Source: Sulfurimonas sp. HSL3-2 (lineage in GTDB: Bacteria > Campylobacterota > Campylobacteria > Campylobacterales > Sulfurimonadaceae). From it: 64,000 bases of DNA. The stretch spans positions 682,001-746,000 of the forward strand of contig NZ_CP147917.1 in NCBI RefSeq assembly GCF_039645965.1, read 5' to 3'. Made by a program: the position numbers and the translations under genes. The notes below the pieces were generated by a model that made no database searches, was not told the origin of the DNA, and worked only from the letters and a program-made list of their open reading frames with translations. Of this stretch, positions 5,283-42,032 are shown in pieces. Numbering within the stretch: the stretch's first letter is position 1; every line of letters begins with the position of its first letter.

Positions 5283-5296
5283 TAAGGACATGATAG

Positions 5297-7386: not shown

Positions 7387-7405
7387 TATAACTAAAGAGG
7401 TATTT

Positions 7406-8130: not shown

Positions 8131-9507
8131 ATGAATTACAAAAAATCTTTTGAAATAAATGAAAAACTACATGCCTTAGTACCGGGTGGTAGCCATACAT
8201 ATAGTAAGGGAGAAGATCAGTTTCCTTATAACTCGCCAAGAATTATGTCACATGCTAAAGGTGCTTATACATGGGATGTTGACGGTAATAAATTTATCGA
8301 TTGGGCCATGGGAAACAGGGTTTTTATCTTAGGACATGCATTTGATGAGGTAGATAATGCTGTAATAGATACAATCAAAAGAGGCACGAACTATACAAGA
8401 CCGGGAATTTTGGAATATGAAACAGCAGATTATTTAATTAACGAACATTTTGATAAATTTGATATGATTAAATTTGGTAAGAATGGTTCAGATGTTACTA
8501 CGGCTGCCATAAAGTTGGCAAGAGCATACACTGGACGGAAATATGTTTTAGTTTGTGGCACGCATCCATTTTTTTCAATTCATGATTGGTTCATTGGTTC
8601 AACTGACATGAATAGTGGTACCTTAGACACAGAGCGACAGTACACTATTAAATTTTTCTATAATGATAGAGAAAGTGTAGAAAAAGCTTTTGATCAATAT
8701 AAAGATCAAATCGCTGCTATTATTTTAGAACCTGTAAAAAATGATTCCCCTTATTTAGACGCACAAGAGAGTGACCTTCACTTAGAAACATTGATTCAAA
8801 AAAATAATTCTTCTGAAAATAACTTTTTGAAATATTTAAGAGAAAAAGCTGATAAAGAGGGTAGTGTTTTAATCTTTGATGAAATGATTTCAGGAATGAG
8901 GTTCGATACAAAAGGTGCACACTCTTTATATGGTGTTTATCCGGATCTGTCCACTTTTGGTAAGTCAATCGCGAATGGTTATTCATGTTCTTTCTTAGTT
9001 GGCAAGAAAGAGATTATGGAACTTGGTGGATTAAAACATAAAAAAGAAAGAGTCTTTTTACTATCGCAAACACATGGTTCGGAAACTACTGGATTTGCAG
9101 CAACACTGGCTACATTTAAAGCATCTAAGAAATATAATGTATCAAATCACGTGTGGAATCTTGGACGAAAACTGAAGAGTGATTTTAATACATTAGTAAA
9201 TAATGAAAAGGTAGCCGATTATTTTAAAATAATCGGTTTTGATGCAAATCCTCAAATATTATGTACAAAGAGAACAGGTGAATTTTGGCCGGAACTACAT
9301 ACTTTTTTTCATGATATCGTTATTAATGAAGGTGTTTTTATTCCATGGATTACAATTACACTAAGTCATACGGATGAACATTTGCATATAACTATGGATG
9401 CTATACGTAAAGCGATCAAAACATTAAAGCCAATTATTGAAAACAATGAAGTAGAAAAATTATTAGTCGGTGATCCTGTTAAACCTGTATTTAGAAAGTA
9501 TAATTAA
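8131..9507 (+). CDS. Class-III PLP aminotransferase (glutamate-1-semialdehyde aminomutase-like)
   Basis: This 458-residue protein is a fold-type I, class III PLP enzyme. Visible landmarks are VPGGSHTYSKG at the N-terminus, the ILEP segment with Glu200, LIFDEMISGMR with Asp250 contacting PLP, and Lys278 in STFGKSIANG as the Schiff-base lysine. It is longer than HemL (about 430 aa) and carries an insertion around residues 205-240, so it is a specialised relative rather than the haem enzyme. Homologues in polysaccharide loci are thought to aminate a sugar-derived keto or aldehyde group. It is followed at once (no gap) by a nitrilase-family gene, implying a shared substrate line. The reaction is not known. 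Confidence 0.75.
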   Translation: MNYKKSFEINEKLHALVPGGSHTYSKGEDQFPYNSPRIMSHAKGAYTWDVDGNKFIDWAMGNRVFILGHAFDEVDNAVIDTIKRGTNYTRPGILEYETADYLINEHFDKFDMIKFGKNGSDVTTAAIKLARAYTGRKYVLVCGTHPFFSIHDWFIGSTDMNSGTLDTERQYTIKFFYNDRESVEKAFDQYKDQIAAIILEPVKNDSPYLDAQESDLHLETLIQKNNSSENNFLKYLREKADKEGSVLIFDEMISGMRFDTKGAHSLYGVYPDLSTFGKSIANGYSCSFLVGKKEIMELGGLKHKKERVFLLSQTHGSETTGFAATLATFKASKKYNVSNHVWNLGRKLKSDFNTLVNNEKVADYFKIIGFDANPQILCTKRTGEFWPELHTFFHDIVINEGVFIPWITITLSHTDEHLHITMDAIRKAIKTLKPIIENNEVEKLLVGDPVKPVFRKYN

Positions 9508-10290
9508 ATGAGATTGGCTCTTGTATCACTTGACCAAGTTTGGGAAGATAAACAATCTAATTTGACATTGTGTGAAGAATATATTAGAAAAGCATCTAAC
9601 GAAAAAGTAGATTTGATCGTTTTCCCGGAGATGACCTTAACCGGTTTCTCGAATAATATAAATTTGACAGCTGAACATAAAGAAGATAGTACTACTATAA
9701 AACTCTTTTCAGAACTTTCTGAAAAATATAGTCTGGCAATTGTTTTTGGTGTTGTAATACAAGATGGCAAAAAAGCATTAAATAAGTCTATATTAATTGA
9801 TACATCTGGAAAAGTCGGCGGAGAGTATTCAAAAGTACATCCTTTTAGCTTTGCCGGAGAAGACAAGTACTTTAACTCAGGACATCAACTTTGTATAGTC
9901 AATTTTAATCACATGAAAATAGGCTTATCTATTTGCTATGACTTGAGATTTCCTGAGTTGTACAGTGCATTAGCTGAAAAAAGTGACTTAGTGGTTAATA
10001 TTGCAAACTGGCCGGCTAAAAGAATTGACCATTGGAATACATTACTCAAAGCTAGAGCCATTGAAAATCAAGTCTATATGGCAGGAGTTAATAGAGTCGG
10101 TAAAGATGCAAATGGATTGGAATACATAGAGAGTAGTAGTTTATTTAATGCGAATGGTGAACTTTTAGAGCATAAGCAGATAGATAATATGAAGATATAT
10201 GAAGTTGATAAAACCTGGACTAAAAAGTTTAAAGAACAGTTCAATACAACTGATGATAGGAAGATTGATTTTTATAAGGAAATACTTTAA
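9508..10290 (+). CDS. Carbon-nitrogen hydrolase (nitrilase superfamily amidase)
   Basis: All three catalytic residues of the nitrilase superfamily are visible: Glu41 in FPEMTLTGF, Lys109 in YSKVHPFSF, and Cys143 in LSICYDLRFPELY. The 260-residue length and the YDLRFPE context match the omega-amidase/Nit2-like branch. It would hydrolyse, or by acyl transfer form, an amide on a small molecule in the cytoplasm. It begins immediately after the class-III aminotransferase stop and overlaps the next SDR start by one base (TAATG). Its presence between aminotransferase and SDR genes of a glycan locus suggests a step on an amide-bearing sugar precursor, or supply or removal of an amino donor; this is inference. 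Confidence 0.8.
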   Translation: MRLALVSLDQVWEDKQSNLTLCEEYIRKASNEKVDLIVFPEMTLTGFSNNINLTAEHKEDSTTIKLFSELSEKYSLAIVFGVVIQDGKKALNKSILIDTSGKVGGEYSKVHPFSFAGEDKYFNSGHQLCIVNFNHMKIGLSICYDLRFPELYSALAEKSDLVVNIANWPAKRIDHWNTLLKARAIENQVYMAGVNRVGKDANGLEYIESSSLFNANGELLEHKQIDNMKIYEVDKTWTKKFKEQFNTTDDRKIDFYKEIL

Positions 10291-11060
10291 TGTTAAAAGA
10301 TAAAGTTGTTGTAGTGACAGGTGGTGCAGGATTAATCGGTAAAGAATTCATTAAAGCAATTGTAAACAATAATGGTATCGCGATAATCGCTGACATAAAT
10401 GAAGCAATCGGTATAGAGGCAAAGAATGATTTATCAAATAAACTAAATACTAATAGAATAGATTTTATTCAACTTGATATTACTTCTAAAGAATCTTTAA
10501 TAAAGTGTATAAAGTATGTAAATGAAAAATACGGGAAAATAGATGCCCTGGTGAATAATGCATATCCAAGAAATAAAAATTACGGTAGAAATTTTTTTGA
10601 TGTGGAGTATAGTGATTTTGTAGAAAATATTGGCTTAAATTTAGGTGGTTATTTTACAACTTCACAACAGTTCGCACATTATTTTTCAAATCAAAAATAT
10701 GGCAATATAATAAATATTAGTTCCATTTACGGTGTAATTGCTCCACGATTTGAAATATATGAAAATACAGCTATGAGTATGCCCATAGAATATGCAGCTA
10801 TTAAAGCAGCACTTATTCATCTTACAAAATATATGAGCAAGTATTTTAAAGGTATGAATATACGAGTAAATACACTTAGCCCTGGCGGTATTTTAAATAA
10901 TCAACCTAAAGATTTTTTAGAAAAGTATAATAGCTATGCTAGTACAAAAGGTATGTTGGATCCTAGTGATCTTACAGGAAGTTTGATCTTTTTACTTTCC
11001 GATTCAAGCAAGTATATAAATGGACAAAATATAATAATTGATGATGGATGGTGCTTGTGA
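10290..11060 (+). CDS. ptmA: PtmA-like short-chain dehydrogenase/reductase
   Basis: A classical SDR of 256 residues. It opens with VVVTGGAGLIGKEF, a TGxxxGxG cofactor motif, followed by NNAYPRN in place of NNAG, the catalytic Ser in NISSIYG, and YAAIK as the YxxxK pair. The C-terminus INGQNIIIDDGW is the usual SDR closing strand. The modified NNAYP segment and overall length fit PtmA of the Campylobacter flagellar legionaminate locus, which sits close to PtmE and NeuB homologues there as here. A second SDR at 17064 is of a different subtype. The substrate is not evident from sequence. Confidence 0.7.
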   Translation: MLKDKVVVVTGGAGLIGKEFIKAIVNNNGIAIIADINEAIGIEAKNDLSNKLNTNRIDFIQLDITSKESLIKCIKYVNEKYGKIDALVNNAYPRNKNYGRNFFDVEYSDFVENIGLNLGGYFTTSQQFAHYFSNQKYGNIINISSIYGVIAPRFEIYENTAMSMPIEYAAIKAALIHLTKYMSKYFKGMNIRVNTLSPGGILNNQPKDFLEKYNSYASTKGMLDPSDLTGSLIFLLSDSSKYINGQNIIIDDGWCL

Positions 11061-12172
11061 AAATAATTTTCATACCGAATTTACCTTATACTTATAGAGA
11101 CCATGAAAGATTTGGTGTAAAGTATTTTTTAGATAAAGGTTATGATGTTGAAGTTATGGATGTACATAAGATTTTACTTCCAAAGTATAAAGAACAAGTT
11201 GATATCGAGTATTATACATTTTCAAAGCATTGGGAACCAAATAATGTTGATGAAATAATTTCAAGTGTAAAACAACTGTCTTCTGAGGACTTTTTATTTT
11301 TTTACATTAATAGTTATGAAGGTATGAAACTTCTTAATCAGATGAAAGATAATACCAGGGCCAAATTTATTACTTATGTCGGTGGAAGTATTCCTACCAG
11401 TACAGTTTTTTGTAATAAGGTAAAAAAAATTAAAGCATTGTTAAAACCACTTGTTAAGAAATATTTACCAAAATATCGAGCCATGAGATTCGAAACAGAT
11501 ATATTTGTATCCGGTTCGCCTAAAGATGAACTGATATTTCCTTATTTAATAGATAAAAATACACAGTTGATAAAATCAAATTCTAGAGATTATAATCTTT
11601 GTCTAAATTCTAAACCTTATCAAAATTCTAAACCTTATTGTGTTTTTTTAGATACAGATGTAATAGATGCAAGTGATTATATTCTTTTTGGTAATAACAT
11701 CCAAAAAGATATAGATCAATATATGAATAAACTTATTAAATTTTTTAAATGGATTGAAGAAGAATACAATATAGAAGTAATCATTGCAGCACATCCTAAA
11801 TCAAGAATATATAAAGATAAGAATGAAATAGATGGGATCAAGATAGAACATGGGAAAAGTGTCGAATTAGTACAAGGATGTGAATTCGTTATTAATGAAG
11901 GAACAACAGCTATATCTTATGCTGTATATTTTGAAAAGCCATCAGTCTTTTTTACATTTAAAGAAATTGATTTTTTTTATGAACATTGTTGTAGTTTTAC
12001 GAAAGCTTTGAAAAAAGAAATCATCAATATTGATCATTTAGATATAGACTTATTTAAAGAGGAATTATTAAATAAGAATTATAAAGATTATAAATATCAA
12101 TACTTGACCTACAATGATGATAAGATATATACTTTTGATAAAATTGAAACTTTTTTAAAAAGAGTTAAATGA
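11057..12172 (+). CDS. Probable GT-B-type glycosyltransferase or glycan-synthesis protein
   Basis: I chose the GTG at 11057 because it overlaps the previous TGA as GTGA and gives MKIIFIPNLPYTYRDHERFG; an ATG at 11048 is possible but reads into the upstream gene. The 371-residue protein has no membrane segment. Its C-terminal half has features of the GT-B fold seen in capsule synthesis and glycerophosphotransferase-like enzymes: VIIAAHPKSR, then GCEFVINEGTTAISYAVYFEKPSVFF, a nucleotide-sugar binding loop layout. The family cannot be named with confidence. It sits directly before the flippase gene (4-base overlap), as expected for a repeat-unit glycosyltransferase. Confidence 0.6.
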   Translation: MKIIFIPNLPYTYRDHERFGVKYFLDKGYDVEVMDVHKILLPKYKEQVDIEYYTFSKHWEPNNVDEIISSVKQLSSEDFLFFYINSYEGMKLLNQMKDNTRAKFITYVGGSIPTSTVFCNKVKKIKALLKPLVKKYLPKYRAMRFETDIFVSGSPKDELIFPYLIDKNTQLIKSNSRDYNLCLNSKPYQNSKPYCVFLDTDVIDASDYILFGNNIQKDIDQYMNKLIKFFKWIEEEYNIEVIIAAHPKSRIYKDKNEIDGIKIEHGKSVELVQGCEFVINEGTTAISYAVYFEKPSVFFTFKEIDFFYEHCCSFTKALKKEIINIDHLDIDLFKEELLNKNYKDYKYQYLTYNDDKIYTFDKIETFLKRVK

Positions 12173-13665
12173 AAGATAGTTTAAAAAGACGATATGCTAT
12201 TAAGCTATTGGCAAATATTATTGTCGGTATAATCAATGCAGTTATTATAGCATTGGTCCCAAAAGCCCTCGGTCCCATTGCATATGGACAGTTTGTTTAT
12301 TTACAAGAATTTTTTATGAAAATTATAGGCTTTTTGGATATGGGTAGCTCTATAGCATTCTTTACAAAACTTTCTGCAAAACATACTAGAAAAGAATTGA
12401 TAACATTTTATTTTATCTATTCTTTTTTGGTGTTATGTTTAGTTTTTAGTTTTATATTTATTGTTGATTCTACTGGTTATTTAAACTCTTTGTTACCTGA
12501 TATTTCAAATACATATGTTTATATGGGATTGTTTTTTGGGTTTTTTACTTGGTTAACACAGATCTTCATCAAAATATCAGATGCTTATGCCTTCACAGTT
12601 TCTGTAGAACTAATTAAAATCGGACATAAACTTGTAACCTTATTATTACTTATATATTTTATCTATATGACTATATTTGATCTAAAAAAGTATTTTGTCT
12701 TTCATTATATTGCATTAGGTTCTTTTATATTTATACTTATATGGTTTTTTATAAAAAATGATTTGTTTAATAAAAGTATATTATCACTAAATTTTGGTTT
12801 TAAGAAAGTATCAAAAGAATTTTTAGATTATTGTCATCCATTATTTATAAATACAGTAATAACAATGTGTGTAGGTTTATTTGACATCTGGCTTTTACAA
12901 ACCATAGCAGGAAGTAAGCAGATGGGATTTTATGGATTGGCATATAGTCTTGCTGCTATGTGTTTTTTATTTACGAGTGCTATGACACCTATTATTACAA
13001 GAGAGTTTAGTAAGTCTTATGAGCAAAAAGATTTAGAACAAATGAAAAGACTTTTTTATAGGTACATCCCTATGCTGTATAGTATAGCAGCTTACTTTTC
13101 AGTATTTATATCAATAGAAAGTGAAAATGTACTTAGTATATTTACAGATGAAAAGTATAAAGGAGCTTTTCTTGTACTTGTTATTATGGCGTTTTATCCT
13201 ATTCATCAGACTTATGGACAATTAAGTGGAAGTATATTTTATGCGACAGGCCAAACGAAGCTTCTCAGAAATATAGCTTTAGTAGTACAGCCTATAGGTA
13301 TGTTGTTGACTTTTGTATTTGTATATACTTTAGATCTTGGTGCAGTTGGTTTAGCATATAAGATGATTATAGTCCAGTTTATAGGAATAATTGTGCAGCT
13401 TTATTTTAATTCGAAGTTTTTAAAACTTGATATCAAATATTTTTTATGGCATCAAGTTTATTCAGTAGTTTTTTTTATATTGATAGCTTTTATTTCAAGT
13501 AAGATTATATCGCTTACATCTCCTTTATATGAGTTTTTAATATCAGGTTTTATATATACACTTTTAGTTACAATTGGCGCTTATATTTTCCCACAAGTTT
13601 TTGCGACAAATAGAGAAGAGTTAAGATTGAATTTTTCGAGGTTAAAAAATGTCATTAAAAAATAA
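12169..13665 (+). CDS. wzx: Wzx-type oligosaccharide flippase
   Basis: The protein (498 aa) is hydrophobic throughout with about 12-14 membrane segments, and its start KLLANIIVGIINAVIIALVP followed by LGPIAYGQFVYLQEF is characteristic of the polysaccharide export/MATE-like Wzx family. It should flip the undecaprenyl-diphosphate-linked repeat unit from the cytoplasmic to the periplasmic face. A Wzy-like polymerase is encoded at 20224, so the locus uses the Wzx/Wzy route rather than an ABC exporter. The gene overlaps its neighbours by 4 bases upstream and 17 bases downstream. Confidence 0.9.
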   Translation: MKDSLKRRYAIKLLANIIVGIINAVIIALVPKALGPIAYGQFVYLQEFFMKIIGFLDMGSSIAFFTKLSAKHTRKELITFYFIYSFLVLCLVFSFIFIVDSTGYLNSLLPDISNTYVYMGLFFGFFTWLTQIFIKISDAYAFTVSVELIKIGHKLVTLLLLIYFIYMTIFDLKKYFVFHYIALGSFIFILIWFFIKNDLFNKSILSLNFGFKKVSKEFLDYCHPLFINTVITMCVGLFDIWLLQTIAGSKQMGFYGLAYSLAAMCFLFTSAMTPIITREFSKSYEQKDLEQMKRLFYRYIPMLYSIAAYFSVFISIESENVLSIFTDEKYKGAFLVLVIMAFYPIHQTYGQLSGSIFYATGQTKLLRNIALVVQPIGMLLTFVFVYTLDLGAVGLAYKMIIVQFIGIIVQLYFNSKFLKLDIKYFLWHQVYSVVFFILIAFISSKIISLTSPLYEFLISGFIYTLLVTIGAYIFPQVFATNREELRLNFSRLKNVIKK

Positions 13666-14416
13666 ATTAAAAAATAATGAATTAACATTAGGTTCTTGGA
13701 TAACAATAGGTCATCCAGCCGTAGTAGATATCATGGCAAGTGCAGGTTTTGAATGGTTAGTAGTAGATATGGAACATACCTCAATAGACCTGACAACGGC
13801 TCATAACCTTATAGCTACCATTCAGGCTAACGGCATGAAGGCATTGGTTAGAGTGAGTAAAAATGAAGAAGTAATCATCAAAAGAGTGCTTGATATGGGT
13901 GCAGATGGCATAGTAGTTCCTATGGTCAAGTCAAGAGCAGAAGCATTAGAAGCCATAGATTATGCAAAATATCCTCCTATCGGTAAAAGAGGGGTAGGCC
14001 TTTTTAGAGCACAAAAGTATGGTTTAGGTTTCGATGAATATAAGAAGTGGGTTAATGAAGAGCTTGTCATTATCGCTCAAATAGAACATTATCAAGCAGT
14101 AGATAATATAGAAGAGATTATTACAACCGATGGAATAGATGGAGTGATTATAGGGCCTTATGATCTATCGGGCTCTATGGGATTTCCTGGAGAATATCAT
14201 AGAGATGATGTCAAAGAAGGTATAGCAAAAGTACTTAGAATATGTAAAGAAAAAAATGTACCGTCAGGTTTTCATGTTATAGAATCAGATCCGACAAAGT
14301 TGCAACAAAGAATAGATGAAGGGTGTACGTTTTTAGCATATAGTTTAGACTTTTTCTTTCTAGGCGATTCAGCACGAAGTGGAATGAAAAATATCAAAGA
14401 AGGATTAAATAAATGA
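13649..14416 (+). CDS. HpcH/HpaI-family class II aldolase
   Basis: The 255-residue protein has the family pattern GSWITIGHPAVVDIMASAGFEWLVVD, then DMEHTSID, GADGIVVPMVKS, GKRGVGLFRA, IAQIEHYQAV (metal-binding Glu) and GPYDLSGSMG (metal-binding Asp). Known members (HpaI, GarL, RhmA) reversibly join pyruvate to an aldehyde to give a 2-keto-3-deoxy or 4-hydroxy-2-keto acid. The next gene, overlapping by 4 bases, encodes a KdsB-like CMP transferase whose normal substrate is a 2-keto-3-deoxy sugar acid. The two would form a logical pair, aldol synthesis then activation. The catabolic role usual for this family is unlikely inside a polysaccharide locus. The aldehyde acceptor is unknown. Confidence 0.85.
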   Translation: MSLKNKLKNNELTLGSWITIGHPAVVDIMASAGFEWLVVDMEHTSIDLTTAHNLIATIQANGMKALVRVSKNEEVIIKRVLDMGADGIVVPMVKSRAEALEAIDYAKYPPIGKRGVGLFRAQKYGLGFDEYKKWVNEELVIIAQIEHYQAVDNIEEIITTDGIDGVIIGPYDLSGSMGFPGEYHRDDVKEGIAKVLRICKEKNVPSGFHVIESDPTKLQQRIDEGCTFLAYSLDFFFLGDSARSGMKNIKEGLNK

Positions 14417-15180
14417 ATATAATATCAATAATACCTGCCAGAATGGGATCAAGCAGATTCCCTGGAAAACCAATGGCAGATATCTTAGGCATGCCGATGA
14501 TCGGACATGTGTATAAACGAGTAAAAATGAGTAAAACTCTTAGTGAAGTCTATGTGGCGACTTGTGATAAAGAGATATATGATTATGTGGAGTCTATTGG
14601 CGGGAAAGCCGTGATGACAAGTGATTGTCATGAAAGATGCAGCGATAGATGTGCAGAAGCTATGCTTAAGATAGAAAAAGATACAAATCAAAAATGTGAC
14701 ATCATGGTAATGGTACAAGGTGATGAACCGTTAACATTTCCTGAGATGATAGATGAAGCTGTACAGCCCATGCTTGAAGATAAAAATATTTTGATAACAA
14801 ACTTAGTAGCAGACATAGATTCACTTGAAGCTTTTGAAAATCCAAATGAAGTAAAAGTAGTTATGGATAAGTTTAGTAACGCTATATATTTTAGTAGAGA
14901 GCCGATTCCAAGTAGAAAAAAAGGTGTCCTTGATGTACCTATGAAAAAACAAGTATGTGTCATACCTTTCACTAGAGATTTTTTGCTTGAATATAACCAA
15001 ATGGAACCAACACCTTTGGAAATTATTGAATCAGTAGACATGATGAGGATTATTGAAAATGGTATGAAAGTCAAAATGGTACCAACACAATACATTACCA
15101 AAGCAGTTGATACACAAGAAGATTTAGATAAAGTTTGTTCAATAATGAAGAAAGACACTTTAAAGGATATATATATATGA
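14413..15180 (+). CDS. KdsB-like CMP-sugar-acid synthetase (second-copy type)
   Basis: This 255-residue protein has the signature of 3-deoxy-manno-octulosonate cytidylyltransferase: IIPARMGSSRFPGKPMADI as the CTP loop, VYVATCD, VMVQGDEPL with the metal-binding Asp, YFSREPIPS, and a C-terminal VDTQEDLDKV. True KdsB has TSxxHxSGTDR in the middle; here the segment reads TSDCHERCSDRCAE, an altered sugar-binding loop. It is coupled to an aldolase gene rather than to kdsA, so it probably activates a different 2-keto-3-deoxy acid as the CMP sugar. It could in principle be the cell's only KdsB, but its setting argues against this. Confidence 0.8.
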   Translation: MNIISIIPARMGSSRFPGKPMADILGMPMIGHVYKRVKMSKTLSEVYVATCDKEIYDYVESIGGKAVMTSDCHERCSDRCAEAMLKIEKDTNQKCDIMVMVQGDEPLTFPEMIDEAVQPMLEDKNILITNLVADIDSLEAFENPNEVKVVMDKFSNAIYFSREPIPSRKKGVLDVPMKKQVCVIPFTRDFLLEYNQMEPTPLEIIESVDMMRIIENGMKVKMVPTQYITKAVDTQEDLDKVCSIMKKDTLKDIYI

Positions 15181-16157
15181 AAGAAAATGATATTCGCCCA
15201 AGTGATCTATTTCAGAAATATATAGATCTTGGGGTTGAAGATATAAAACAATTTTTTTTAAATGCATTATTAAAGCCAATTAATTGCCCGGCATGTAATA
15301 AAAAAGGTGTATTTGCTTTTAATAAATTAGGATTTTATTATGAAGAATGTTCAGAATGCAAAACATTGTATGTAAGCCCTAGACCTGAAAAAAAAGCATT
15401 TGAACTATATTATAGTGATTCTAAATCAAGTCAATTTTGGGCAAATGAATTTTATAAAGAAACAGAAAAAGAGCGTAGAGAACAAGTTTGGAAGCCCAAG
15501 GCAAAACTTGTATTAGATGTTATTAAGTCTTTAAATGATATTCAATCTGTTGTTGATATCGGAGGCGGATATGGGATTTTTATAGAAGAATTAAAAAAGC
15601 TTGATAATAATCTTGATCTATTAGTAATAGAGCCTTCAACACAATTGGCTAATGTATGTAAAGCTAAAGAGTTAAACGTAAAGTGTTGTTTTTTTGAAGA
15701 AGTAAACACTGATGAGTTACCATATGCAAAAACTCTTTATACAAGTTTTGAACTATTTGAACATTTATATGATCCAAAAGTTTTTCTTGAAAAATTATTT
15801 TCTTCAATGAAGTCTAATGATGTCTTTTTGTTTACTACTTTAAATGGAATGGGCGTAGATATTCAAACTTTATGGGAAAAGTCTAAATCTGTATCCCCTC
15901 CTCATCATCTTAATTTTTTTAATCCTAAATCAATAGAAAAGTTATTAGTAGAAGTTGGTTTTGAAGTTTTAGAGATATCTACACCAGGAAAGTTAGATAT
16001 AGATATTATGAATAATAATATATTAGATATTAAAGATAGATTTTGGAAAAATTTTTTAGAACAATCCTCAGAGTCTGAAAAAGCCAATATGCAAAAATTT
16101 ATTTCTGAACATTTATTAAGTTCGCATATGATGATTTTATGTAAAAAAAGAGGATAA
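15177..16157 (+). CDS. Class I SAM-dependent methyltransferase with N-terminal zinc ribbon
   Basis: I place the start at the ATG at 15177, which overlaps the previous TGA as ATGA and has AAAGGA upstream; a TTG at 15135 in frame is less likely. The protein (326 aa from this start) has a four-cysteine ribbon early on (CPACNKKG ... CSECKTLYVSPRP), followed by a Rossmann methyltransferase domain with VVDIGGGYGIFIEEL as SAM motif I and FELFEHLYDP, a typical motif around the active site. Zinc-ribbon methyltransferases of this layout include sugar C-methyltransferases and small-molecule methylases of natural-product and glycan loci. It sits between the KdsB-like and radical SAM genes. Target atom and sugar are unknown. 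Confidence 0.8.
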   Translation: MKENDIRPSDLFQKYIDLGVEDIKQFFLNALLKPINCPACNKKGVFAFNKLGFYYEECSECKTLYVSPRPEKKAFELYYSDSKSSQFWANEFYKETEKERREQVWKPKAKLVLDVIKSLNDIQSVVDIGGGYGIFIEELKKLDNNLDLLVIEPSTQLANVCKAKELNVKCCFFEEVNTDELPYAKTLYTSFELFEHLYDPKVFLEKLFSSMKSNDVFLFTTLNGMGVDIQTLWEKSKSVSPPHHLNFFNPKSIEKLLVEVGFEVLEISTPGKLDIDIMNNNILDIKDRFWKNFLEQSSESEKANMQKFISEHLLSSHMMILCKKRG

Positions 16158-16164
16158 GAAAAAA

Positions 16165-17067
16165 ATGATTGAAAGATTTATTGACTCCAGTACAAAAAGA
16201 AAAAAAATTATAGTCAAAGATAAACTACGGTATTTTGATAATATTCCTGTTTTTTCAATTGTTGAGTTTAATATATATGGGAATTGTAATAGAGACTGTA
16301 GCTTTTGTCCAGTCTCAAATCCTGAGATTTATGAGAAACGACATGAAGGTATTTCTATTGAACTTTTCAGTAAGGTTATAGATGATTTAGTTGAAATTAA
16401 CTATCAGGGAAAGATTCTTTTTTCCGCTTTTTCAGAACCGCTTCTACATAAAGAATTAGAGATATTAATATCTAATGCAAAAAGCAAATTACCAAATACA
16501 AGAATTGAAATAGTCTCCAATGGAGATTTACTTACAGTTAAAAAATTAAAGTCAATTTTTGATGCAGGATTGGATACTATTAGCATAAGTATGTATGATG
16601 GTGACCATCAAATAGATCATTTTACTCAAATGGCAAATGAATGTGGATTGAATGATTCACAAGTGATTTTAAGAAGGAGATATCTAAAAGATGGTAACTA
16701 TGGATTAACTATATCCAATAGAAGTGGATTAATTAATTCTAATGAGTTTAGAGACAAAAATGAAGAGATTATTTCTGAATTACCTTTAAAAAGTAAATGT
16801 TATTATCCATTTTATATGATTCTTGTAGATTATAATGGTGATGTTCTGCTATGTCCTCATGACTGGAGCAAAAAATTAAAATTTGGTAATTTAACTAAGA
16901 ACAGTATATGGAACATTTGGAAAAGTAAAGTATTAAATAGTTTAAGAGGACGATTGGCAAACTCGGATAGAAACTTCAACCCATGCAAGAGTTGTGATGT
17001 ACTAGGGACTGTTATTGGTGAAGATAGTTTTGACGCATGGCTTCTTTCAGGAGAAATTGAAAAATGA
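16165..17067 (+). CDS. Radical SAM/SPASM-type enzyme
   Basis: The radical SAM cluster motif CxxxCxxC is present at Cys41, Cys45 and Cys48 (CNRDCSFC), followed by FSAFSEPLLHKEL, the SAM-binding strand. The C-terminal third carries further cysteines, in CYYPFYMILVDYNGDVLLCP and NPCKSCDVLG, that match a SPASM or twitch auxiliary iron-sulfur domain. At 300 residues it is compact. Such enzymes modify peptides or carry out dehydrogenation, epimerisation or C-C bond chemistry on small substrates; several act on sugars. It lies within an overlapping run of oxidoreductase genes, so a sugar or sugar-acid substrate is more likely than a peptide. No precursor peptide gene is visible nearby. Confidence 0.85.
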   Translation: MIERFIDSSTKRKKIIVKDKLRYFDNIPVFSIVEFNIYGNCNRDCSFCPVSNPEIYEKRHEGISIELFSKVIDDLVEINYQGKILFSAFSEPLLHKELEILISNAKSKLPNTRIEIVSNGDLLTVKKLKSIFDAGLDTISISMYDGDHQIDHFTQMANECGLNDSQVILRRRYLKDGNYGLTISNRSGLINSNEFRDKNEEIISELPLKSKCYYPFYMILVDYNGDVLLCPHDWSKKLKFGNLTKNSIWNIWKSKVLNSLRGRLANSDRNFNPCKSCDVLGTVIGEDSFDAWLLSGEIEK

Positions 17068-17777
17068 AGACAGTGCTAATTACAGGTGCCAATAGTGGAA
17101 TCGGATTTACAACAGTAAAGCTTTTTCTTGAGAATGGATATAAAGTTTTTGCACACTATAATACCAGTAAAAATAATTTAGAAAAAATAAAAACTGATAA
17201 ACTTATTTTATTGAAATCAAATTTTAAAAACATTGAAGAAGTTGAAAATTTATTTGAAATGGTTACTAAACAGACCCCAACTATAGATATACTTGTTAAT
17301 AATGCAGGATTATATGCTCCTGCAGATAACTTTAGTGGGCTAGGTATAAAGTTATTTGATGATGTCTTAAATGTAAATTTAAAAGCACCATTTTTATTGT
17401 CTAAAAAATTTATAGAGTTAATGAAAAATTATAAAAGGGGTAAGATTATAAATATATCTAGTATCGGTGTTAAATATGGTGGTTCTATAAAATCCATGCA
17501 ATATACTATAGCAAAATCAGCTTTAGAAACTATGACTCTTGGATTTGCTAAAGAAGGTGCTAAATATAATATTTTAGTAAATGCATTAAGAGTAGGGGTT
17601 ACTGATACTAGTATTCATAGTAAAGTAAAGGATAAAAATATGAAGGAAAGGATCGAGATGATACCTTTGAAAAGAATGGCTAAACCAGAAGAGATATCAG
17701 AGTATATATTGTTTTTATCTTCTGAAAAAAGTAATTTTACGACTGGTAGTATTATTACAATTTCAGGTGGTGAATAG
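17064..17777 (+). CDS. Short-chain dehydrogenase/reductase (FabG-like)
   Basis: A 237-residue classical SDR with VLITGANSGIGFTTVKLF as the TGxxxGIG cofactor motif, LVNNAGLY, the catalytic Ser in NISSIGV, and YTIAK as the YxxxK pair. The closing strand TTGSIITISGG is typical of FabG-like reductases. It overlaps the radical SAM gene by 4 bases and the following D-2-hydroxyacid dehydrogenase by 1 base. In this setting it likely reduces or oxidises an intermediate of the same pathway rather than a fatty acyl-ACP. The substrate cannot be read from the sequence. Confidence 0.8.
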   Translation: MKTVLITGANSGIGFTTVKLFLENGYKVFAHYNTSKNNLEKIKTDKLILLKSNFKNIEEVENLFEMVTKQTPTIDILVNNAGLYAPADNFSGLGIKLFDDVLNVNLKAPFLLSKKFIELMKNYKRGKIINISSIGVKYGGSIKSMQYTIAKSALETMTLGFAKEGAKYNILVNALRVGVTDTSIHSKVKDKNMKERIEMIPLKRMAKPEEISEYILFLSSEKSNFTTGSIITISGGE

Positions 17778-18697
17778 TGAAAATAGTAGTAACATCACCA
17801 TCATTTTCAAGTAATGAAGTTCTTCAAAATGAGATATTCCATTACTTTCCAAATGCTAAGTTGAATTTGGAAGGAAAAAGATTTTCCAAAGATGAATTGA
17901 TAGAGTATATAAAAGATGCGGATGGAGTTGTTATTGGATTAGAACCGATTGATAAAGATGTCCTTGAACACTGTCCAAAGTTAAAAATTGTATCTAAGTA
18001 TGGTGTCGGATTAAATAATATTGATTTAAAAGAATGTGAACAACGAAGTATTGCTATAGGATGGACAGGTGGAGTGAACAGACTCTCTGTATCAGAGATG
18101 ACATTAGGATACATGCTGATGTTAGCAAGGAATTTATATGTTACATCAAATCAGTTAAAAAATGGTATCTGGAATAAATCTGGTGGATTTCAGCTAAGTG
18201 GTAAAACAGTAGGAATAATCGGCGTTGGCTTTATAGGTAAAGACCTGATTAGACTTTTGAAACCATTTGGATGTAAAATATTAGTAAATGACATTATTGA
18301 TCAAGATGAATATTATAAGCAAAATGATTTGATAAAAGCTTCAAAAGATGAAATATTTAGAAGTTGTGATTTTGTTACAATACATACTCCATATGATGAA
18401 AGTACGAAAAATATGGTGAATCAAGAAATACTTAGTAACATGAAAAAAAGTGCCTTCATTATAAATAGTGCAAGAGGTGGTATAGTTGATGAAGTGGCTT
18501 TGAAGTATGCTCTTCAGAACAATATAATAGCCGGAGCAGCAATTGATGCTTATTCGGAAGAACCTCCTAGTGATAAAGAGTTTTTGTCATTAGAAAATTT
18601 AATTTGTACGCCTCACATCGGTGGAAATGCGAAAGAGGCTGTAGAAGCTATGGGCATGAGCGCTATTAAACATTTAGTGGAGTTTTTTAATTTATGA
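17777..18697 (+). CDS. D-2-hydroxyacid dehydrogenase (SerA-like)
   Basis: GTG start overlapping the previous TAG by one base. The 306-residue protein matches the NAD-dependent D-2-hydroxyacid dehydrogenase family: VSKYGVGLNNID, the dinucleotide-binding GIIGVGFIGKDL near residue 147, INSARGGIVDE with catalytic Arg233, the acidic residue in DAYSEEPP (about 261), and His280 in CTPHIGGN. It lacks the C-terminal regulatory ACT domain of housekeeping SerA, so it is a short, dedicated form. It would interconvert a 2-keto and a 2-hydroxy acid. Together with the nearby aldolase and KdsB-like genes this is consistent with handling a sugar-derived acid, but the direction of reaction is unknown. Confidence 0.85.
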   Translation: MKIVVTSPSFSSNEVLQNEIFHYFPNAKLNLEGKRFSKDELIEYIKDADGVVIGLEPIDKDVLEHCPKLKIVSKYGVGLNNIDLKECEQRSIAIGWTGGVNRLSVSEMTLGYMLMLARNLYVTSNQLKNGIWNKSGGFQLSGKTVGIIGVGFIGKDLIRLLKPFGCKILVNDIIDQDEYYKQNDLIKASKDEIFRSCDFVTIHTPYDESTKNMVNQEILSNMKKSAFIINSARGGIVDEVALKYALQNNIIAGAAIDAYSEEPPSDKEFLSLENLICTPHIGGNAKEAVEAMGMSAIKHLVEFFNL

Positions 18698-19572
18698 AGA
18701 AAGTAATAGTTTTTGGTGGAAGCGGATTTTTAGGATCATATGTTGCTGATGAGCTTACAAGAAAAAATTACGATGTTACAATAGCAGATATTAATAAATC
18801 AGACTACATACAGAACAATCAAAAATTTGAGAGTATAAATATACTTGACATAGAAAGCATAATAGAACTTATAAAAGATGCTGATGTCGTTTATAATTTT
18901 GTTGCCATTGCAAATCTTGATGCAGCTATACATGATCCTATAAATACGATAAGTATTAATGTTATAGGAAACTTGAATATTCTAGAAGCTTGTAGAAGAA
19001 ATGGTAACATTAAAAGATTTATTTATGCTAGCAGTGCTTATGCATTAAGTAATGAGGGTTCTTTTTATGGTATAAGCAAACAATCTTCAGAAAAACTGAC
19101 AGAAGAATATTATAAAAGATATGGTTTAAAATATACAGTCATCCGATATGGTTCTTTATATGGAGAAAGAGCAAGTCATAACAACTACATCTATAATCTT
19201 TTATATGATGCTATACATTCTGGTGAATTGCTTTACAAAGGTGATGGCGAAGATCTAAGAGAATATATACATGCAGCGGATGCTGCTAAACTTTCTGTAG
19301 ATATATTAGAAGATGACCAATATGAAAATGAACACATTATATTGACCGGTATGGAAAAACTTAAAAGAATAGAATTGTTAACTATGATAAATGAAATTAT
19401 GCAAAATAAATTAAGTATAAAGCAGATATCAGATGATAATATGGGACATTATAGAATTACACCTTATACTTTTCATCCAACAACGGCAAAAAAGCTTGTT
19501 GCTAACCCATACATTGACTTAGGACAGGGATTACTTGAATGTATACAAGAGATACATAAAGAGAGTAAATGA
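18694..19572 (+). CDS. NAD-dependent epimerase/dehydratase (extended SDR)
   Basis: The 292-residue extended SDR begins VIVFGGSGFLGSYVADEL (GxxGxxG), with FIYASSAYAL holding the catalytic Ser and YGISK as YxxxK, then RYGSLYGERA and GEDLREYIHAADAA, the substrate-binding stretch of nucleotide-sugar epimerases. It overlaps the 2-hydroxyacid dehydrogenase and cyclase genes by 4 bases on each side. Family members catalyse 4-epimerisation, 4,6-dehydration or keto reduction of nucleotide sugars. Because its partners act on acids, a CMP- or NDP-linked uronic or ulosonic substrate is conceivable, but this is inference. Confidence 0.85.
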   Translation: MKKVIVFGGSGFLGSYVADELTRKNYDVTIADINKSDYIQNNQKFESINILDIESIIELIKDADVVYNFVAIANLDAAIHDPINTISINVIGNLNILEACRRNGNIKRFIYASSAYALSNEGSFYGISKQSSEKLTEEYYKRYGLKYTVIRYGSLYGERASHNNYIYNLLYDAIHSGELLYKGDGEDLREYIHAADAAKLSVDILEDDQYENEHIILTGMEKLKRIELLTMINEIMQNKLSIKQISDDNMGHYRITPYTFHPTTAKKLVANPYIDLGQGLLECIQEIHKESK

Positions 19573-20231
19573 TTTTTTTATCGTATGTATTAAAGCAGAA
19601 TACACCGACTTATGGTGATAGAAACCGATTCGAGATCATTAAGAAAAATGCTATATCAAAAGGGGATATAGCAAATGACAGTTTTATGTCTACTACTGTA
19701 CATATAGGGACACACATAGACATGCCATATCATTTTTATGACAATGGGCAGACCATAGAAGACTTCGATCCTAAATTCTGGGTGTTTGAGAATCCATTGA
19801 TAGTCGAGATAACCCCCAAAGACCTAATAATTAAAGACGAATTGATAGCTAAATTAAGTGATATAAAAGATAATGGGTTTGATATTTTGATAATTAAAAC
19901 TGGAATCTGTCATATTAGAGATGAAAAAAGATTTTGGAGTGAAAATTATGGATTTCATCCTGATATTTATGATTTTTTAATTGATAAATTTCCAAAGGTA
20001 AGAGTATTTGGATTTGATTCTATATCAGTTTCTAGTTTTACTGACCGATTGTTAGGTAGAGAAGCACATAAAAGATTTTTAAATCCTGAAAAACCGTTAC
20101 TTCTTCTTGAAGATATGGATCTAAGAAACATAGATGAAAAATCAACTTTCGGTAAGATAATAGTAGCACCACTTCGAATATCAGATTGTGATGGATTACC
20201 TTGTACTATTATGGGATTTCCCAATGACTGA
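19569..20231 (+). CDS. Cyclase-family (kynurenine formamidase-like) metal-dependent hydrolase
   Basis: The defining motif HxGTHxDxPxHF is present at His45-His55 (HIGTHIDMPYHF), and FGFDSISVSSF with a later SCDGLPCTIMGFP end fits the 'cyclase' (KynB-like) fold. At 220 residues it is normal length. Characterised members hydrolyse N-formylkynurenine, isatin or related amides and lactams. No tryptophan-degradation genes are near; instead it closes the overlapping run that began with the aldolase. A role in forming or opening a lactone, lactam or formamide on a sugar acid fits the setting. It shares 8 bases with the following polymerase gene. The reaction is not known. Confidence 0.8.
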   Translation: MIFLSYVLKQNTPTYGDRNRFEIIKKNAISKGDIANDSFMSTTVHIGTHIDMPYHFYDNGQTIEDFDPKFWVFENPLIVEITPKDLIIKDELIAKLSDIKDNGFDILIIKTGICHIRDEKRFWSENYGFHPDIYDFLIDKFPKVRVFGFDSISVSSFTDRLLGREAHKRFLNPEKPLLLLEDMDLRNIDEKSTFGKIIVAPLRISDCDGLPCTIMGFPND

Positions 20232-21534
20232 CAGATTTACGGAAAATAATATTTTTTTGATAAAAAATACTTTGCTGATAAGTATTATAATATCATGGTT
20301 TATATATACAGGTATAGGTTTTAATTTCAAAGGGACGCCAATAGATATATCGAAGATTGTTATATTAGGTACACTATTAGTATTTTTATATGGTAAATTT
20401 AAGTATCAAGTTAATAAAATAGACATAATATTCCTAATTTACATCGTATCACAAGTTTTATTCTCTATATTTTATGTAAGCTTTTATATTCAATTTATGT
20501 ATCTATTATATTATATATTGTTTTATTATTTGTCATATTTTATTGCTCGAATAATTTTTGATAAAAACTATATATTCGAGGACTTCATCAAATATATTAG
20601 CTATATAACTATTATTCTACTCTCTATAATGATATATTTACATGTTAGTAATAATTATTATTTTGATAATTATAGAATAGCATATCACCATAGTATATTA
20701 GAATACTCCCATACATATAAGAGAATATTTAATGAAATTGATATGGGTAATTCCTTCGTAGGTCAATTTGTGAATCCGAATACATCGGTCCAATTTCTCG
20801 GTATGTTGATGGTGTTTTTATTACCATATTATCTATGGAAAGTAAATAAAACTAATATTGTACTTTTTTCTATAACCTCAATATTTCTTATAGTAAGTAT
20901 GGCTATGACACAATCAAGAGCAGGCCTGATTATTATATTAATGCAGTTTATTATATTAATAATAATAAGATATAAACATAGTATGAAAGCATCAATAATA
21001 TTTGTAGGATTCTTATCTATCTTGTGGCTAATAGATAAAAATATAGTGTTATATTATTTTTATCTTTTTACTAATTTAGGCACATATATAGATCAAACGA
21101 AGTCTTTAGTTGAGTCAATGCCTTCAGAACATTTAGATCGAGTATATTATTATAAATTATTTTTTGACTATGTAATAGATAGTAATTTAAATTTTTTATT
21201 TGGTTATGGGCCGTTGGTGCATAAACTGAATGTTAATATTAGGGGAATTACGGATTTAGCATGGGTCTTTAATACATTTTTACAAGTAGGATTAATCTCA
21301 ATTTCTATTTATGCAGTCTTTTATATAAAAATATTAAACGAAGCATGGAAAGTTTATAAAATCAATAAACTAAAGTATAAGGGACTCTTTAAATATATAA
21401 TTGCAGTTTTTTTGGGGATGATTGTTGTTTCCATTCCTGGTTATCAAGCAATATTAAATCCAGTATATTTTTTTATGATAGGTGCACTTGTATCCTTAGT
21501 ATATAATCATAAAATCGAGATAAATAATGATTAA
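20224..21534 (+). CDS. wzy: Wzy/O-antigen ligase-like polymerase
   Basis: I chose the ATG at 20224 (MTDRFTENN), which overlaps the cyclase stop by 8 bases; an ATG at 20188 is in frame but would overlap much further. The protein (436 aa from this start) has about 10-12 membrane segments and a large periplasmic loop in the second half (residues about 290-360, containing ESMPSEHLDR and FGYGPLV), the layout shared by Wzy polymerases and WaaL ligases. MTQSRAGLIIIL in the middle is a typical Wzy_C motif. As the only such protein in the locus and with Wzx present, polymerase is the more likely role. The gene is extremely AT-rich. Confidence 0.8.
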   Translation: MTDRFTENNIFLIKNTLLISIIISWFIYTGIGFNFKGTPIDISKIVILGTLLVFLYGKFKYQVNKIDIIFLIYIVSQVLFSIFYVSFYIQFMYLLYYILFYYLSYFIARIIFDKNYIFEDFIKYISYITIILLSIMIYLHVSNNYYFDNYRIAYHHSILEYSHTYKRIFNEIDMGNSFVGQFVNPNTSVQFLGMLMVFLLPYYLWKVNKTNIVLFSITSIFLIVSMAMTQSRAGLIIILMQFIILIIIRYKHSMKASIIFVGFLSILWLIDKNIVLYYFYLFTNLGTYIDQTKSLVESMPSEHLDRVYYYKLFFDYVIDSNLNFLFGYGPLVHKLNVNIRGITDLAWVFNTFLQVGLISISIYAVFYIKILNEAWKVYKINKLKYKGLFKYIIAVFLGMIVVSIPGYQAILNPVYFFMIGALVSLVYNHKIEINND

Positions 21535-22144
21535 AAATATTTTATGGGATTTTGATGGTGTAATTCTTGATAGTATGAAGATCAAAGGTGATGGATTTGT
21601 AGAACTTTTTAAAGAATATGATAAAGATAAAGTAAGTTTATTGGAAAAATATCATTATCAAAATGGAGGAGTATCTAGATTTGAGAAGATAAAATACTTT
21701 TATAATACAATTCTTAATAGAGAAATAAGTGAAGAAAAAATTACTGCCTTAGCCATAGAGTTTGCAAAGATTATAGAAAAAAAACTTTACCAAAAAGAGA
21801 ACCTCTTTGAAGAAAGCGTTGAGTTTATAAAAATGAATTATAAAAACTTTGACTTTCATATAGTTTCCGGAGCAGAACATAAAGAATTAAATGAGCTTTG
21901 TCAATATTTTGGTTTATCTCAATATTTTAAAACTATAAATGGAAGTCCAACTAGTAAAGAAATTTTAGTTATGAATATTGTAGAAAAATATCATTATAAA
22001 AGAGATGAGACGATCTTAATCGGTGATGCTATGACTGATTATAATGCAGCAATAAAAAATAATATTAACTTTTATGGATATAACAATCCGGAATTAAAAA
22101 AAAATGGACCATATATAGACAGTTTTAAGGATTTTAAAATATGA
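21527..22144 (+). CDS. HAD-superfamily phosphatase
   Basis: The catalytic motif I is WDFDGVILDS with nucleophile Asp8 and acid/base Asp10; motif II lies in IVSGA, and motif III/IV in GDAMTDYNAA. The 205-residue size with a helical cap between residues about 17 and 85 is that of a phosphoglycolate phosphatase-like HAD. It probably dephosphorylates a small sugar or sugar-acid phosphate. In nonulosonate and Kdo synthesis such a phosphatase removes the phosphate left after condensation or before activation, so it may serve the aldolase/KdsB-like branch. Start overlaps the previous gene by 8 bases and the stop overlaps the next by 4. Confidence 0.8.
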   Translation: MIKNILWDFDGVILDSMKIKGDGFVELFKEYDKDKVSLLEKYHYQNGGVSRFEKIKYFYNTILNREISEEKITALAIEFAKIIEKKLYQKENLFEESVEFIKMNYKNFDFHIVSGAEHKELNELCQYFGLSQYFKTINGSPTSKEILVMNIVEKYHYKRDETILIGDAMTDYNAAIKNNINFYGYNNPELKKNGPYIDSFKDFKI

Positions 22145-23652
22145 ATTCACGAGAATTAAATGAATCATATTTACAACATAAACAAAAGTTTCAAAACTAT
22201 ATAAACGTGATTAAAAAAAGCAGTCCTTGGGATATCTATACTATAGTGAATGCCACTTTGATAAAAAATCCATATACAACAGTTTTCCCACTAAGATTTT
22301 TCAAAAAAGAGTTAAAAAACAACAATCTAATATTCTCTTTTTGTAAAAATATTGGTTTGTTTTATATTAAAAACATTTATCTATACCTTTCTTTTTTTAT
22401 AGCTTTTATTCTCTATAAAATTTATTATAAAAAACAAAGAAAAAATGAATTGAAAACTATTATAGATATTTTTGGATTAGTAGATAAAACAAATAAAGAC
22501 GGTGTCTTTAGTGAGCATTATTTAACAGGAATATATGATGTATTTGAAAAATATAATCAACAATATACTATTTTGCTTCGTTTATATGGATTGGGTAGAA
22601 ATCCATTTAAATTAATAAAATTTCTAAAAATTATTAGGGAAGATAAAAGAGACATCATTTTTGAATATGAATTTTTAAAATTTAATGATTTTTTAGATCT
22701 GTTTATTTTATGCGTATTGTATCCATTTAAGACACTTAGACTTATACAAAAAGAGCGAATAGAACAAGATAAAATTTTTAATGAATCAATTATAGAAGAT
22801 ATAAGATATTTCAATTTAGATAGTTTGAATCGGTATATACTGGGCAAAAACTTATCAAGAATACAATCGATAGAGAAAATTTATTCTTGGAGTGAGTTTC
22901 AAGTCATTGAAAGAAGTTTTAATTACGGAGTTAGAAAGAACAATAATGATATTAAGTTAATTGCTTGTCAATTCTATCTTAATTATGAATCATATTTTAA
23001 TACCTATATCGATGATTTAGATTATGATATGTTGGCATCGCCGCATGAAGTGCTTGTGAATGGACAGTATTATGTATTAGATAGAGATAAAGTTAAATAT
23101 GCTAGAGGTGTTTCTTTACGATATAAAAATATTTTTCATTTTCAAGGTGTTATAGAAGAAAAAAATATTTTACTTTTAGGTTCATATATGGAAAAAGATA
23201 CACAATATATGCTTGAGAGTGTGAAAGATTTTAAGAATGTAATATTTAAAAATCATCCTGCAGTTGATATTAGTATATTTGGAAAATTATCTACAAATAT
23301 AGCTATTTCCAATGAAAATATTTATGAACTTTTTAAAAATACAAAACTTGTGATAGGTACCGCATCCGGTACTGCTGTTGAAGCAGTCGCTTGTGGTATC
23401 TCTGTCATAATTATAGCAAGTCAGGACAATCTTACCGTTAATCCGTTGGTTGAACATGGAAAAGGTGAGATTTGGGATATTGCTTTCAGTAAAGATGATG
23501 TACCTACTTTGTATAATAAACTTTTAAATTATAGAAAAAATAATATAGAAAAAATAAAGAGTATATCTTTGTGGTATAAAGAGAACTTTTTCATTGAACC
23601 AACAGAAGAAAAAATTGTTAAATTGTTTAAATTAGATAAGGAAAAGAAATAG
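22141..23652 (+). CDS. Large uncharacterised surface-carbohydrate protein, GT-B-like C-terminus
   Basis: This 503-residue protein has a short hydrophobic stretch at about residues 75-97 (IYLYLSFFIAFILYKIYY) and is otherwise soluble. The C-terminal part shows NILLLGSYMEKD, FKNHPAVD, and VIGTASGTAVEAVACGISVIIIA, the layout of a GT-B nucleotide-sugar site (an HP motif followed by a Gly/Ala-rich loop). The N-terminal 250 residues have no motif I recognise. It resembles the large surface-carbohydrate proteins found in O-antigen loci rather than a standard glycosyltransferase. It lies between the HAD gene and the CDP-hexose genes. Function is uncertain. Confidence 0.6.
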   Translation: MNSRELNESYLQHKQKFQNYINVIKKSSPWDIYTIVNATLIKNPYTTVFPLRFFKKELKNNNLIFSFCKNIGLFYIKNIYLYLSFFIAFILYKIYYKKQRKNELKTIIDIFGLVDKTNKDGVFSEHYLTGIYDVFEKYNQQYTILLRLYGLGRNPFKLIKFLKIIREDKRDIIFEYEFLKFNDFLDLFILCVLYPFKTLRLIQKERIEQDKIFNESIIEDIRYFNLDSLNRYILGKNLSRIQSIEKIYSWSEFQVIERSFNYGVRKNNNDIKLIACQFYLNYESYFNTYIDDLDYDMLASPHEVLVNGQYYVLDRDKVKYARGVSLRYKNIFHFQGVIEEKNILLLGSYMEKDTQYMLESVKDFKNVIFKNHPAVDISIFGKLSTNIAISNENIYELFKNTKLVIGTASGTAVEAVACGISVIIIASQDNLTVNPLVEHGKGEIWDIAFSKDDVPTLYNKLLNYRKNNIEKIKSISLWYKENFFIEPTEEKIVKLFKLDKEKK

Positions 23653-40233: not shown

Positions 40234-41752
<1,519 letters not shown>

Positions 41753-41824
41753 CTAGAGTAAGCATTAAGATTCGTTTCTTAGATGCAATACAAAGAAAAT
41801 CTCACACGAGATGTTAGTTATTAA

Positions 41825-41841
41825 GTTGTTTACTTGCTTAG
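41825..41841 (+). other. 3' half of the 16S rRNA processing stem
   Basis: Pairs with 40048-40064 in the leader as described there; it lies between the 16S 3' end and tRNA-Ala. Confidence 0.8.
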
Positions 41842-41873
41842 TCCTGAGTGATCAGGCTATATTATTACTTGAT

Positions 41874-41949: not shown

Positions 41950-42032
41950 TCTTTTCATTATGAAGTTTAACACCAGACCTAGATGTAGGTTTAGTGTTAG
42001 ACTTTTAAGTCTAAGAAGTTCATTAAATTATT

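Follow-up and report, generated by a model that had tools for sequence, protein, structure and literature searches.

The window analysed here is a stretch of 64,000 nucleotides (G000:C1:682001-746000) from the complete 2.24 Mb genome of Sulfurimonas sp. HSL3-2, and the question that it raises is what is made by a run of tightly packed genes at window positions 13649-20231, in which an HpcH/HpaI-family aldolase is followed by a relative of KdsB, the enzyme that activates 3-deoxy-D-manno-octulosonic acid (Kdo) with cytidine monophosphate (CMP). The gene set recurs across distant phyla as a real, conserved and apparently undescribed cassette, probably a variant of CMP-ulosonic acid biosynthesis, whose membership differs from that first proposed. 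We consider it reasonably probable that the product of this mobile cassette is a CMP-activated ulosonic acid destined for a surface glycan, and that a pyruvate-type HpcH/HpaI aldolase, not a phosphoenolpyruvate (PEP)-dependent synthase, forms the carbon-carbon bond. The genes are listed below by window position, with the short names used in the text.

12169-13665, + strand: Wzx-like flippase upstream of ALD, a position conserved in Campylobacterota; homologs in 16 loci, mostly directly before ALD
13649-14416, + strand: ALD, HpcH/HpaI-family metal-dependent aldolase (PF03328); core
14413-15180, + strand: KDSB, KdsB/KpsU-like CMP-ulosonate cytidylyltransferase with an altered sugar site (PRK13368, TIGR00466); core
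15177-16157, + strand: MT, Methyltransf_23 methyltransferase with a CxxC-type N-terminal region (PF13489); apparently variable decoration, non-core
16165-17067, + strand: RSAM, radical SAM/SPASM protein (PF04055, PF13186); variable, paired with SDR2
17064-17777, + strand: SDR2, classical short-chain dehydrogenase (PF13561/PF00106, synteny); variable, paired with RSAM
17777-18697, + strand: DHG, D-2-hydroxyacid (phosphoglycerate-type) dehydrogenase (PF02826, PF00389); core
18694-19572, + strand: EPI, short extended short-chain dehydrogenase of the epimerase/dehydratase family (PF01370, 142.8 bits); core
19569-20231, + strand: CYC, cyclase-family (kynurenine formamidase-like) metal hydrolase (PF04199, 62.2 bits); core, sometimes absent
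20188-21534, + strand: Wzy-like membrane protein between CYC and HAD (weak Wzy_C match below the cut-off); outside the module
21527-22144, + strand: HAD, phosphatase of the beta-PGM type (PF13419, 58.3 bits); core
22141-23652, + strand: GT, putative GT-B glycosyltransferase and candidate CMP-sugar user (synteny, predicted fold, motif)

The list of open reading frames (ORFs) confirms the eight genes of 13649-20231 that a preliminary description of the DNA had reported, including the overlaps of 4, 4, 4, 1, 4 and 4 bases between neighbors and the sole gap of 7 bases (16158-16164), and Pfam and NCBIfam agree with the families named for all eight. For MT, the ORF list reaches a TTG at 15135, but the ATG at 15177 is a better fit. 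The overlaps had been taken as an argument for a single pathway. However, the tight packing extends in both directions, with the Wzx-like flippase overlapping ALD on one side and the Wzy-like, HAD, GT and CDP-sugar genes following on the other, and because the whole surrounding glycan cluster is equally packed, overlap cannot delimit a pathway.

A conserved core and variable genes

The genome contig collection was scanned once with KDSB, which yielded 73 loci, and the fetched flanks were examined by synteny and profile searches. All six genes of the core (ALD, KDSB, DHG, EPI, CYC and HAD) are present in the flanks of 19 of the 40 loci that contain both ALD and KDSB. These two genes are neighbors in 28 of 39 loci, and the KDSBs of the window's clade mostly accompany ALD where the contig allows. 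The six core genes are consecutive, with nothing intervening, in L028 and L029, and other core gene orders are found in L034, L037, L038, L040 and L044, with CYC missing from L037 and L038. In most of the complete cassettes, HAD adjoins EPI or CYC. It falls outside 13649-20231 because a Wzy-like gene has been inserted in this strain, and synteny shows that this gene is absent from the CYC-HAD slot in the relatives.

The methyltransferase and the radical SAM/SDR2 pair behave differently from the core. Homologs of MT occur in 13 related loci, and the remaining loci hold other genes in its slot. Close homologs of RSAM are confined to L013, L016, L037 and L082/L130 (the latter two coming from the L013 genome itself or a nearly identical one), and RSAM lies beside SDR2 wherever the locus extends far enough. 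The gap between KDSB and DHG contains MT and RSAM/SDR2 in the window, an FkbM-like methyltransferase and RSAM/SDR2 in L013 and L016, a hexapeptide acyltransferase and a methyltransferase in L008, aminotransferase-containing sets in L011 and L022, and no genes at all in L028 and L029. Judged from these gene contents, MT and the RSAM/SDR2 pair look like strain-specific decoration rather than part of a common pathway. A single pathway of all eight genes, as proposed in the preliminary description, agrees with their contiguity and overlap in the window, but three of the eight are exchanged for acetyltransferase, FkbM methyltransferase, aminotransferase or other genes, or for nothing, in most related loci, and HAD, a core gene, was missed, which makes this version highly improbable. 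The search for the same set in other genomes recovered a recurrent six-gene core, with the variable genes in only part of the loci. We conclude that the real module is the core including HAD at 21527-22144, to which the transferase at 22141-23652, which comes after HAD in the Campylobacterota cassettes, probably also belongs.

The core-bearing loci are from Campylobacterota, Bacteroidota, Fidelibacterota, Pseudomonadota, Omnitrophota, Methanoperedens archaea, Nitrospirota and others; the window itself lies near sequences of Campylobacterota. The KDSB tree mixes these phyla, and since it does not track them, it points to horizontal spread of the cassette. No KDSB of the window's clade was found in the plasmid and phage collections, and a search of the plasmid collections with EPI identified one Acuticoccus plasmid (L132).

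Of 397 genomes from the phylum, 5 contain KDSB, 10 ALD, 14 EPI and 14 CYC, and the sets are nested, with KDSB inside ALD and ALD inside EPI. EPI and CYC share 13 genomes, and the holders of EPI are scattered over 12 of the 68 genera. The nominal hypergeometric p-values for co-occurrence range from 2e-8 to 2e-22, uncorrected for kinship. EPI was encoded somewhere in all 10 genomes searched for it, consisting of eight without EPI in the ALD-KDSB flank and the positive controls L028 and L029. For example, L135 is a separate contig with DHG-EPI-CYC-HAD-GT from an ALD-KDSB genome that lacks EPI in the flank.

In L027 (8777-10555), DHG is fused to an N-terminal domain that weakly resembles cytidylyltransferases (PF02348, just under the cut-off).

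The sugar site of the cytidylyltransferase

KDSB scores 323.9 bits against PRK13368 (cut-off 255) and 163.1 bits against TIGR00466 (cut-off 155.2), and the nearest solved structure is KpsU (1gq9), while it misses the PRK05450.1-1 equivalog cut-off (182.5 versus 281). The motifs for cytidine triphosphate and magnesium are kept (PARxxSSRxPGKP, QGDEP and VDT). The canonical C-terminal sugar-site motifs, HIGIYAY and LEQLR, are replaced across the whole ALD-linked clade, which contains KQVC-IPF, ESVDMMR, SREPIPS and HERxSDR as opposed to the canonical KHVGIYAY, ESLEQLR, SRSPIPY and HESGTDR. We take the histidine of HIGIYAY to be a residue that contacts Kdo. The motif also shifts with the architecture of the cassette, being KQVC-IPF together with EPI and HAD, and KQLG in most cassettes with an AroB-related cyclase (TIGR04425), which suggests that the KDSB pocket varies with the enzymes that accompany it.

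A canonical KdsB is encoded elsewhere in the genome, at G000:C1:1638366; it is intact and contains HIGIY and LEQLR, and its only KdsA match, at G000:C1:218103, is located outside the cluster, so the PEP-dependent KdsA is not part of the cassette. The scores above the TIGR00466 and PRK13368 cut-offs and the similarity to KpsU would fit a capsule-type CMP-Kdo synthetase that acts on ordinary Kdo, with the aldolase and the other genes performing unrelated steps. Yet the clade-wide changes are located in the C-terminal domain, which binds Kdo in characterized KdsB enzymes (PMC3149649), the motifs differ between architectures, a canonical KdsB is encoded elsewhere, and a NeuA-type enzyme substitutes for KDSB in otherwise similar cassettes, all of which make an ordinary Kdo enzyme very unlikely. 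The coupling of an aldolase to an atypical KdsB-like CMP transferase, a central point of the preliminary description, is upheld by the adjacency of the two genes, the altered motifs and the separate location of KdsB and KdsA.

Other altered KdsB-like proteins were also observed. Besides KDSB, L026 (from Daejeonella sp. H1SJ63, a cultured carrier) and L027 contain another KDSB-like gene, the motif of which is IEVCVFPF. The KdsB-like proteins of L058-L076, from gut and rumen Bacteroidales, have the divergent sugar motifs ESIDLLR, EDIDLNR and VNTP; many of their genes are located beside a gene for a protein of about 508 residues, and none are found with an aldolase.

Exchange of the cytidylyltransferase

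In L120-L124, which lack KDSB, a NeuA-type cytidylyltransferase of 224 residues precedes ALD-DHG-EPI, together with HAD and CYC (CYC being absent in L124). The Acuticoccus plasmid has the order aldolase, acylneuraminate cytidylyltransferase, phosphoglycerate dehydrogenase, HAD and oxidoreductase, and L125 combines a NeuA-type enzyme with a divergent HpcH aldolase of 291 residues. A YhcH/DUF386 gene is also present in L120, L121, L123 and L124; YhcH is an anomerase of N-acetylneuraminic acid that serves a ulosonic-acid aldolase (PMC8141875). In L121 and L127, genes for sialyltransferases of the CST-I family are located close to the cassettes. The replacements of the cytidylyltransferase provide the strongest support for a CMP-activated ulosonic acid as the product, and the accompanying YhcH and CST-I genes favor it as well. 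The product had been described as Kdo- or nonulosonate-like; a CMP-ulosonic acid agrees with our data, but "Kdo-like" is too narrow, because the cytidylyltransferase may be of either the KdsB-type or the NeuA-type.

The candidate transferase

The GT protein (503 residues) had no match in Pfam and shows weak similarity, below the cut-off, to TIGR04326. A profile search of the PDB with the GT alignment yielded only chance matches, and the protein was consequently judged by its fold. The structure model (predicted local distance difference test score 87.6) matches GT-B folds, the top matches being generic GT-B enzymes and epimerases, with a polysialyltransferase at rank 24. The residues K370 and H372-P373 are invariant in 10 sequences, some of which are only 20% identical. 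Transferases of CMP-sialic acid and those of beta-Kdo have an HP motif in common (PMC2169525, PMC10148158). These features of the modelled protein are compatible with a CMP-sugar donor, short of proof.

A proposed pathway

ALD matches PF03328 with 128.5 bits (cut-off 25) but falls under every curated equivalog cut-off, with 191 bits for HpaI (cut-off 369), 167 for GarL (407) and 149 for YfaU/RhmA (441). Of the 40 aligned sequences, at least 38 keep the catalytic and metal-binding residues (D/E/H, R, E and the D of GPxDLS); the HpaI reference row in this alignment serves as a label only, and the PDB alignments show the same residues. The solved relatives include 3qz6, YfaU (2vws), GarL (1dxe) and 6r62, the last of which is named hydroxyketoacid aldolase. 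CYC contains the motif HIGTHIDMPYHF and has the kynurenine formamidase 4cz1 as a solved relative.

Gene content, co-occurrence, exchange of the cytidylyltransferase and the separate canonical Kdo genes were established directly, and from these we infer the reactions, the substrate and the product. EPI, DHG and CYC would prepare or oxidize a phosphorylated aldehyde, for which a chemically reasonable, though speculative, route would form a lactone, open it and then oxidize a 2-hydroxyacid. ALD, given its family and intact active site, would add pyruvate or a closely related 2-keto acid, giving a ulosonate phosphate. This HAD may then dephosphorylate, in the way that KdsC acts in Kdo synthesis. 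KDSB, in line with its family function and in spite of the altered sugar site, would couple the acid to CMP, and GT or a similar enzyme may transfer the sugar. MT and RSAM/SDR2 would add strain-specific decoration. The order of ALD, HAD and KDSB is drawn by analogy with KdsA, KdsC and KdsB.

Several observations weigh against this scheme. L126 contains DHG-EPI-CYC and a split transketolase but no ALD, and L127 contains DHG-EPI-CYC-HAD and cytidylyltransferases but no ALD. The main uncertainty is thus that DHG-EPI-CYC may serve without ALD, either in a different pathway or beside a different enzyme that forms the carbon-carbon bond; the transketolase set of L126 is possibly such a bond former for the same module. 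Furthermore, the scheme assigns no individual reaction to DHG, EPI and CYC, the proposed change in the sugar site of KDSB is read from sequence motifs, and the fold matches of GT are generic for GT-B. HpcH/HpaI aldolases are mostly catabolic, and the K-x-H-P motif is also found in CDP-glycerol transferases. The L126 locus (9190-14831) also holds a radical SAM protein with a B12-binding-like N-terminus.

The loci without ALD raise the alternative that DHG-EPI-CYC-HAD is a separate module for another building block, which could be an acyl group, a unit resembling a cyclitol or a second sugar acid. Such a module would often be combined with ALD and the cytidylyltransferase but chemically unlinked to them. 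L047 and L051, in which MocA, SIS, SDR and an AroB-related cyclase replace EPI and HAD beside ALD, KDSB and DHG, would also be explained in this manner. However, all 10 of the ALD-bearing genomes in the phylum carry EPI, and six-gene cassettes are found whole in distant phyla, reordered without loss of members. We therefore consider a separate module to be unlikely.

Another alternative concerns the substrate of the aldolase, which may be hydroxypyruvate made by DHG and HAD from 3-phosphoglycerate, in which case the product would be a 3-hydroxylated rather than a 3-deoxy ulosonic acid. Such a product would account for the altered pocket in KDSB, and 6r62 is among the relatives of ALD in the PDB. 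DHG is found with either cytidylyltransferase type and in nearly every architecture, and although its best NCBIfam model, PGDH, is below the cut-off, its closest relatives are the 3-phosphoglycerate dehydrogenases. On the other hand, the best-scoring relatives of ALD in the PDB are pyruvate enzymes, DHG also occurs in L126 and L127, where ALD is missing, and the genome has to form 3-phosphohydroxypyruvate for serine anyway. The use of hydroxypyruvate is thus rather improbable, and a pyruvate-type aldolase that supplies a CMP-ulosonic acid pathway is still our preferred interpretation.

Comparison with known systems

The cassette resembles the Kdo pathway (KdsD, KdsA, KdsC and KdsB) in that a HAD-type phosphatase and a KdsB-family cytidylyltransferase would act at the end, and its product would likewise be a CMP-ulosonic acid. 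It differs in the aldolase that takes the place of the PEP-dependent KdsA, in the sugar site of KDSB and in the additional DHG, EPI and CYC, and the Kdo genes proper are retained at other sites in the genome. The nonulosonic acid pathways (NeuB/NeuA, LegI/LegF and PseI/PseF) also provide CMP-ulosonic acids for surface glycans, and in L120-L124 and L132 an enzyme of the NeuA-type stands in for KDSB, but the cassette has an aldolase instead of NeuB. The NeuB of the window (at 5297) belongs to another block, which has a cytidylyltransferase-family gene of its own (at 7406). Operons for sialic acid catabolism (YhcH, NanA) similarly pair a YhcH/DUF386 anomerase gene with an aldolase for a ulosonic acid (PMC8141875), whereas the aldolase in the cassette is of the HpcH/HpaI-type rather than the NanA-type and is placed in a biosynthetic setting with a cytidylyltransferase and glycosyltransferases.

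Finally, the clusters with a TIGR04425 AroB-related putative sugar phosphate phospholyase (L024, L047, L051 and L057) share ALD, KDSB, DHG and sometimes CYC with the window cassette, but EPI and HAD give way to MocA, a GmhA-like SIS protein, an SDR and the AroB-related cyclase, and the KDSB motif is KQLG. A C10 or cyclitol product for this architecture was considered but is speculation and was left aside. L024 (8001-16768) is a mosaic in which KDSB of the window type, DHG and CYC are combined with the MocA/SIS/SDR/AroB-related set.

The preliminary description knew of no pathway with this gene set, and our literature search, which left subscription papers and supplements outside its range, did not find it described either; nor does KDSB appear to be the normal Kdo enzyme of the genome, and the genes recur elsewhere. 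The paper on kdsB1/kdsB2 in Leptospira (PMC4758666) does not describe the set, and for Klebsiella K38, which contains a 3-deoxy-pentulosonic acid, no useful gene detail was found in PMC4616057.

More broadly, the cassettes may represent a widespread and modular third route to CMP-ulosonic acids, with an HpcH/HpaI aldolase in place of the PEP-dependent synthases, an interchangeable activator of the KdsB- or NeuA-type and a product not yet seen in any glycan, a generalization that we regard as a serious possibility, just short of probable. To our knowledge, the known biosynthesis of CMP-Kdo and CMP-nonulosonates uses PEP-dependent synthases, and ulosonic-acid aldolases are known from breakdown. 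If true, a biosynthetic aldolase route common to Campylobacterota, Bacteroidota, Proteobacteria and archaea would mean a further class of acidic sugars on cell surfaces. It would also provide enzymes for making such sugars and account for a block of glycan genes that recurs without an assigned function.

Other features of the window

An Rfam scan of window positions 1-36000 identified no RNA feature, and scans for promoters and terminators gave results near chance level. Upstream of the Wzx-like gene, positions 8131-12172 encode a class III aminotransferase (PRK06209 type), a CN-hydrolase, an SDR and a GT-like protein. This block also precedes Wzx-ALD in L010, with 65-75% identity, and may be a second linked sugar module. 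The nonulosonate-type block mentioned above (2785-8122) consists of a DegT aminotransferase, a NeuD-like acyltransferase, a glycosyltransferase, NeuB, a PtmE-like CBS-nucleotidyltransferase and an SpsF-like cytidylyltransferase-family gene.

Further downstream, a complete rRNA operon and one tRNA are located at 40234-45321, where the listed ORFs are spurious. Positions 45925-57281 contain a very long surface protein with Ig-like repeats (1805 residues), the repeats of which are nearly identical, and a type I secretion set adjoins it on the opposite strand. Positions 57838-60915 encode a MutS protein (1025 residues) that carries an HNH domain at its C-terminus.

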